A stretch of 64,000 bases of DNA, taken from positions 558,001 through 622,000 of the forward strand of contig JAEACG010000002.1 in NCBI GenBank assembly GCA_016401345.1. The letters are read 5' to 3'. Below the pieces are notes generated by a model. It ran no database searches, was not told where the DNA came from, and saw only the letters and a list, made by a program, of their open reading frames with translations. This document shows, piece after piece, positions 47,499-48,790 of the stretch. Position 1 is the first letter of the stretch, and every line of letters begins with the position of its first letter. The position numbers and the translations under genes are program-made. The DNA comes from Fictibacillus nanhaiensis (GTDB lineage: Bacteria; Bacillota; Bacilli; Bacillales; Fictibacillaceae).

Positions 47499-47505
47499 GA
47501 GATTG

Positions 47506-47536
47506 TTGCAAAATTGGAAGTATGATATGATATTAT
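47506..47536 (+). promoter_or_regulatory. Possible promoter of the OLE RNA
   Basis: TTGCAA and TATTAT, the latter with an extended -10 TGA, are separated by a long 19-nt spacer. The predicted start is close to 47543, just at the terminal helix of the RNA. Confidence 0.5.
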
Positions 47537-47543
47537 TTGCTTT

Positions 47544-48156
47544 GGAGTGGTGCAGTATTCTAGTCAGCCCCCCATTCCTGAAGGCGGGCCTAAAAATCCG
47601 CCAAAGGGCACATCGATGAAGTTCCTTGCATTGGCTTGAGGCGCCCAGCCTTGGGTCATCGCTGGGAGTTAAGGTTGAAGGGCGATCCACAATGGCATGT
47701 GGGCGAGGACCCTTCTTCCGCGGAGGCCCCCATATTTGCGGTTTGTGTTCAAAAGACCTTACTGCGAAATGGGGTTTGAACCTGCTTAGCTTTTTTTCTT
47801 GTTCACAGGAAAAGAAGGCGAGCAGCGTAGCCTGCCTTGAGTGGAGCTTGAGGGGATTATGGTGTGAAAAGCCTGTATCGGTTGGCCGCTGATTATGAGC
47901 TTTATACCATATGAAATCTTCTCTGCAAAAGAGGCTAGGGAATGTGCGCGAGGCTGTTGAGGAAAACTCCTAGACTGTTCTGCCCTGACACCTTTTAGGG
48001 ATTATAGTGCGGACTAAGTGGTAATCTAGTCTAACGTTTGGTGACAGCGTTAAGAAGAGAGTAAAGGGAAACCGCGAATATGGCGACATTTCGTACTCTT
48101 CTGGGAAAACCTACTGGACCTAAGCCGCAGTCTTTACTTAATAAGGTGACCACTCC
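47544..48156 (+). ncRNA. ole: OLE RNA (Ornate Large Extremophilic RNA)
   Basis: This gene-free segment of about 613 nt between ispA and oapA is G/C-richer and more structured than other gaps. The ends close exactly: GGAGTGGT (47544-47551) with ACCACTCC (48149-48156). Internal helices include CCCAGC/GCTGGG (47644-47666), CCCT/AGGG (47983-48000), GGACTA/TAGTCT (48011-48032) and AGAAGAG..AGTA with TACTCTTCT (48053-48102). OLE RNAs are about 600 nt, occur in extremophilic and anaerobic Firmicutes, and lie beside ispA/dxs and the gene for OapA. They form membrane-bound complexes tied to cold, alcohol and Mg stress in Halalkalibacterium halodurans. Identification rests on position, length, terminal helix and neighbour; no covariance search was run. 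Confidence 0.92.
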
Positions 48157-48193
48157 CTATTACATAAAGTGACCAAAAAGTGAGGAGTTATGC

Positions 48194-48790
48194 ATGAAGC
48201 ATTCCTTTTCTAAAACACTCAAATGGAGTACAAGCATTGCCGTTATCACTCTTGTGTTAGCGGCTATTTTTACAGTTATATCCTCTTTTATGTTAAATGG
48301 AGTTTCGTGGGCGTTAGGGATGGGAATCGTCTTTCTAATCGTATTAACCGGGGTTCTTTTTGATATAGTAGGGGTAGCATCCACAGCTGCGAAAGAAGTT
48401 CCGTTTCACGCGATGGCTTCTGAGAAGGTTCCTGGAGCAAGACATGCTATAATCATTACAAGAAACGCAGATCGTGTAGCGAATTTTTGTAACGATGTTA
48501 TCGGTGATATCTCTGGAATCGTTAGCGGAACAGCATCTGCTGCAGTTGTAGTAGAACTTACACTCTCTATGGGGAATAGGTCTGGATCTAACTCTGAGTA
48601 TTTGATCTCGATCGTCTTCACGAGTGTAGTAGCTGCACTCACGGTAGGAGGTAAAGCGTTAGGAAAGTCATATGCGATCAACCACTCAACCTTTATTATT
48701 TTTCAGGTTGGGCGTTTATTATATTTTTTAGAGGAAAAATTAAGAATTAAACTGCTATCGCCTGCTAAAAGAGAGAAGAAAAGGCGCTAA
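48194..48790 (+). CDS. oapA: OLE-associated membrane protein OapA
   Basis: A 198-residue integral membrane protein with about four hydrophobic segments (12-36, 38-60, 105-130, 135-155) and a very basic C-terminus ([13 protein letters not shown]). The central block [20 protein letters not shown] plus [20 protein letters not shown] sequence resembles DUF21/CNNM metal-transport modules, in line with the proposed link of OapA to Mg homeostasis. In known species OapA binds OLE RNA and brings it to the membrane. ATG 48194 follows GTGAGGAG, 38 nt after the RNA. I base the name on context and topology; alternative is a generic DUF21-like protein. Confidence 0.88.

Follow-up and report, generated by a model that had tools for sequence, protein, structure and literature searches.

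A complete ole-oapA unit between ispA and dxs in Fictibacillus nanhaiensis

The window, that is, the whole 64,000-nt stretch of Fictibacillus nanhaiensis DNA analysed here, contains a complete ole-oapA unit whose products would form a membrane-anchored RNA-protein particle. We put the probability of this whole reading, up to the membrane ribonucleoprotein, at about 0.87; that the sequence is an OLE RNA is practically beyond doubt. The initial annotation had called the unit complete, which is supported by the OLE match, by the 66% identity of OapA to the homolog of Halalkalibacterium (H.) halodurans DSM 497 in an alignment, and by OapB and OapC in the same genome. The unit is one more typical example of a known RNA-protein pair. 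Fictibacillus is a spore former, and a literature search covering few subscription journals found no paper joining OLE RNA and this genus. PMC9723947, PMC11332333, PMC12054373, PMC12265935 and PMC12286853 are cited below for the portions of their text available to us.

The features of the locus, in window positions, are as follows.

46617-47498 (+): ispA, upstream neighbour (profile matches)
47503-47531 (+): probable ole promoter, TTGTTG 47503-47508, 17-nt spacer, TATGAT 47526-47531 with upstream TGA (by eye)
47531-48169 (+): OLE RNA (RF01071), full length (covariance match)
47544-47551 (+): terminal helix, 5' arm GGAGTGGT (covariation)
47585-47599 (+): P4 A-rich loop, published dimer contact (same 15-mer in 66/88 OLE sequences)
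47640-47650 (+): P5 loop GCCCAG (same 11-mer in 65/88 OLE sequences)
47668-47728 (+): P6 region, published bS21 site, with the P6 loop at 47688-47700 (available text of PMC12054373)
47878-47892 (+): P9 loop with GGCC (comparison of 88 OLE sequences)
48149-48156 (+): terminal helix, 3' arm ACCACTCC (covariation)
48182-48187 (+): Shine-Dalgarno-like GAGGAG of oapA (sequence)
48194-48790 (+): oapA, 198-aa membrane protein (alignment and OLE adjacency)
48494-48508 (+): DxxxD motif of OapA, D101 and D105 (invariant in 48/48)
48790-50709 (+): dxs, downstream neighbour (profile matches)

The OLE RNA and its terminal helix

The Rfam OLE model (RF01071) matched positions 47531-48169 (+) at 497.2 bits (cut-off 50, E 7.1e-143), and the match spans model positions 1-616 of 616 without truncation. 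The identification of OLE RNA made in the initial annotation was borne out by this search. The score exceeds the 390-bit line that PMC11332333 draws with its own model for 'full-length' OLE, a rough comparison only, as the two models differ. The OLE is the sole copy within the 4.28-Mb genome. GOLLD and ROOL, families other than OLE that are likewise large ornate RNAs and form RNA-only assemblies (PMC12286853), did not reach their gathering scores in the window. Elsewhere in the window, the glycine riboswitch model RF03166 matched positions 19318-19500 at 110.2 bits, barely above its cut-off of 110.

The segment had been described as 613 nt long, gene-free, enclosed by an exact 8-bp terminal helix and placed between ispA and dxs. 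Extent, helix and place agree with the coordinates obtained here. Two ORFs overlap the segment (77 aa, 47457-47690, minus strand; 88 aa, 47626-47892, plus strand), and since they fall within the modelled structure of the RNA, 'gene-free' is fair as regards proteins.

The arms GGAGTGGT and ACCACTCC pair exactly, and neither 8-mer recurs on the plus strand of the window. The helix was compared in 60 distinct arm pairs drawn from 88 distinct OLE sequences, which remained after L001, L098 and L099 were excluded and 9 letter-identical duplicates were removed from the 97 extracted; these duplicates are the Fictibacillus loci L018-L026, each identical to a genus genome in the set. Pairs 1-6 are formed in 60/60 arm pairs, pair 7 in 59/60 and pair 8 in 43/60. 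Pairs 5-8 show two-sided changes, for example from G-C to A-U. The contiguous helix averaged 8.58 bp, whereas 2000 arm re-pairings, a control that ignores relatedness, reached 7.22 at most. The helix is thus exact, unique on this strand and covarying. The Rfam model leaves both ends unpaired and omits it. The helix is probably the published P1, a name taken from the text of PMC12265935, because that text assigns P1 and P2 to the domain that contains the 5' and 3' ends.

The OLE of H. halodurans shares with that of the window the full-length fold, the order ispA-ole-oapA-dxs, the terminal helix and the dimer loops. The two RNAs are about 70% identical including 30-nt flanks (476/677 aligned columns), and the model score is lower here (497.2 vs 538.6 bits). 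Relative to the Rfam model, the window OLE has a 15-nt insert in one stem at about 47796-47812, which is longer in several Fictibacillus rows and which the H. halodurans OLE lacks.

The loops published as dimer contacts are kept in the window OLE, as the 88-sequence comparison showed. The role of the P4 A-rich loop is given in PMC12265935. The P5 loop GCCCAG and the P9 loop with GGCC were assigned in this analysis to the kissing contact and the kissing loop, respectively, that the available text of the same paper describes.

OapA and the other protein partners

The oapA gene adjoins the segment as claimed, with 37 nt, and not 38, between the terminal helix and its start at 48194. The basic tail that had been noted for OapA is present (...AKREKKRR). 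The alignment with the H. halodurans homolog and the presence of OLE beside all of the fetched oapA loci confirmed the identity of the protein. Among the best 80 of 335 OapA relatives, OLE lies upstream of oapA in 80/80 loci, and the order ispA-oapA-dxs is kept in 78/80; in the other two, the upstream side is cut by a contig edge and dxs lies downstream. All 48 homologs aligned (the window's OapA and 47 from the 80 named loci) have D101 and D105, which should equal D100 and D104 of H. halodurans, judging from the alignment. DxxxD is the OapA signature, and CNNM domains lack it, according to the part of PMC11332333 available.

The OapA ORF had no NCBIfam match, and its match to the Pfam CNNM family (PF01595) stayed below the gathering score (16.6 bits, E 0.0066; cut-off 28.4), which agrees with what is published for OapA. 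No solved structure matched OapA by sequence at E up to 1. The predicted structure is all-helical with long helices and has a mean pLDDT of 70.0 (five models, 44.9-70.0). With this modest model, no Foldseek match reached E 0.001, and the three top matches were chains of the archaeal CNNM protein MtCorB (E 0.034-0.17). The CNNM likeness of the modelled fold is at most suggestive. The weak profile match and the top Foldseek matches link OapA to the CNNM/MpfA family, from which it differs in having DxxxD and no CBS or CorC_HlyC domain.

Homologs of OapB and OapC, for which a search had been proposed, are both encoded in the same genome, as is bS21. OapB is a 107-aa ORF (G000:C2:47986-48306) that matches the solved OapB 7k9b (E 1.4e-33), and its neighbours are presumably map-like and infA-like ORFs. 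The OapC candidate is an L7Ae-family ORF near 30351 of G000:C2, flanked by rpoC-like and rpsL-like ORFs, which matches B. subtilis YbxF (E 1.8e-26). The system thus resembles that of H. halodurans in its DxxxD OapA and in encoding OapB and OapC. OapB, two L7Ae-family proteins and bS21 were each found in 18/18 Fictibacillus genomes. In the window, we take the gene at 51618-52079, three genes downstream of ole, to be of the argR type from its position. ArgR is mentioned as an unpublished OLE partner in the available portions of PMC12265935 and PMC12054373.

The P6 region of the H. halodurans OLE contains CCUCCU, which matches the 16S tail perfectly and so is an anti-Shine-Dalgarno (ASD) mimic (PMC12054373, in part), whereas the P6 region of the window OLE lacks it. 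A perfect CCUCCU was found in the aligned P6 region of 9/88 OLE sequences, all of them H. halodurans or Halalkalibacter-like loci, and in 0/21 Fictibacillus rows. As the perfect mimic is missing in this genus, bS21 may not bind as described, and its contact with the Fictibacillus OLE may differ from the published one. In the same portion of PMC12054373, mutants in less conserved pairs still bind bS21, and changes to conserved G-C pairs abolish binding. Since mutants altered at the mimic still bound bS21, CCUCCU does not define the family, and bS21 could still bind the Fictibacillus OLE.

Loss of ole in one genome and the MpfA-type proteins

OLE is present in 17 of the 18 Fictibacillus genomes, at full length with 493-506 bits and beside an intact oapA. 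The exception is the genome G001, in which the OapA search returned a fragment only. G001 is otherwise collinear from nusB to recN, with an ispA-dxs gap of 374 nt (L130 6886-7259) vs 1291 in the window. Two fragments of oapA remain in the gap, covering residues 5-42 (55% identity) and 162-185 (58%), and a 53-nt stretch there is 90.6% identical to the start region of the window's oapA. Searched at E up to 1, the 16-kb stretch of G001 gave no OLE match. The junction is internal to a 1.5-Mb contig, which excludes a contig break as the cause. By these sequence remnants, the gap is the scar of a lost ole-oapA unit. G001 keeps OapB, two L7Ae-family proteins and bS21. PMC11332333, as far as its text was available, describes defective OLE genes as a rare finding in organisms that lack OapA, so a loss like that of G001 is known in kind.

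Three MpfA-type proteins, each with CNNM, CBS and CorC_HlyC domains, are encoded in the genome of the window, and 2-3 CNNM proteins lie above the Pfam cut-off in each of the 18 Fictibacillus genomes. H. halodurans differs in this respect, as mpfA is absent from it according to the available part of PMC11332333. The published anticorrelation of OLE and MpfA ('no more than one') was examined in a sample of 299 genomes of the order, with the CorC_HlyC count per genome as the measure of MpfA. OLE was found in 174/299 genomes and a CorC_HlyC domain in 290/299; all 9 genomes without the domain carry OLE. The mean count was 1.99 in the 174 OLE genomes vs 3.24 in the 125 others. The within-family difference was -0.66, reached in 2/2000 permutations over 15 mixed families in a comparison made without a tree. 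The family that holds this genome runs the opposite way (2.4 vs 2.0), with one OLE-less genome. The anticorrelation is therefore confirmed in degree. 'No more than one' does not describe the order by CorC_HlyC count, the published family model being a different one: 115/174 OLE genomes have two or more CorC_HlyC proteins.

As G001 lives without OLE, and three MpfA-type proteins are present here, the OLE particle may be partly redundant. A stronger version is that Fictibacillus still has OLE, made largely redundant by several MpfA-type Mg exporters, and that the locus is on its way out. The three CNNM-CBS-CorC_HlyC proteins of this genome, the 2-3 CNNM proteins per genus genome and the loss of ole and most of oapA in G001 would fit this. 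We consider it improbable, because the full-length OLE and intact oapA of 17/18 genomes speak for continued selection; moreover, the number of CNNM proteins is not higher upon loss (3 in G001 and 3 here), and many OLE genomes of the order have at least two MpfA-type proteins. We rate a further, tentative picture as possible, with the odds against it. Fictibacillus would be in transition, its OLE-OapA working beside two to three MpfA-type exporters that are not simple substitutes; the overlap would have allowed G001 to dispense with ole and the greater part of oapA but to retain OapB, the L7Ae pair and bS21, which would then serve other RNAs, and the bS21 contact would be made without the ASD mimic, or not at all.

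Copies outside chromosomes were also sought, in searches that divergent copies could escape. An exact 20-base OLE pattern was found in 0 stretches of viral contigs, no phage record matched at E 1e-5, and the plasmid search matched one record. The 16 pattern matches for OapA in viral contigs included no relative. That record is the 504-kb pMM59_01 of Pusillibacter faecalis, which PLSDB types as conjugative. It contains a full-model OLE of 399.8 bits (L169 4983-5647; NZ_AP023421.1 about 200833-201497); a gene annotated as 'CNNM domain-containing protein' and then dxs come after it, the same order as here. This would be an OLE unit on a secondary replicon, but pMM59_01 could also be a mislabelled part of a chromosome.

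Transcript and proposed particle

The probable ole promoter at 47503-47531 was located by eye in the sequence, and its -10 block is kept in 10 aligned upstream regions, including that of H. halodurans. A consensus scan of 47300-48900 returned 0 promoter-like sites (shuffles mean 2.9), and a terminator scan of the same interval returned 2 terminator-like sites, both on the minus strand (shuffles mean 1.6). The lack of a plus-strand terminator-like site in this interval, the one-strand gene cluster and the start of oapA after 37 nt are what one would expect if the segment served solely as a structured leader, or as a processing element, of an oapA-dxs mRNA, with no separate RNA. This is very improbable, given that OLE is conserved across 616 model positions, that the ends of the segment pair with each other and covary, and that H. 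halodurans is reported to make an abundant RNA of its own from ole, about 630 nt long (PMC9723947, in part). A chance match or decayed copy is refuted by the untruncated covariance match (E 7.1e-143) and opposed by OapB, the L7Ae pair and bS21 in 18/18 genus genomes, and we give it next to no weight.

For the complete unit, we infer expression, dimer formation, membrane localisation and a stress role from published studies of H. halodurans and of two OLE RNAs from Clostridium. Transcription would start at a promoter within the isoprenoid/DNA-repair gene cluster and yield a roughly 0.6-kb RNA, which the covarying terminal helix would close. Two copies would pair via the P4, P5/P6 and P9 loops, and OapA, distantly related to the CNNM domains of Mg exporters, would anchor them in the membrane as a dimer; P3 is proposed to span the membrane in the available text of PMC12265935. 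OapB, OapC and perhaps bS21 would bind and remodel the RNA. The particle would help cells to cope with cold, alcohols, an excess of Mg and poor carbon sources. By analogy, a membrane ribonucleoprotein is very probable in this species, and the same stress roles as in H. halodurans are somewhat favoured.

The P6 comparison bears on whether bS21 recognises OLE through an ASD mimic. Fictibacillus combines, within one genus, genomes with an intact OLE and a genome with its scar, with the other partners in all 18 and MpfA-type proteins throughout. This makes the role of OLE, and the question of whether MpfA replaces it, testable between close relatives.
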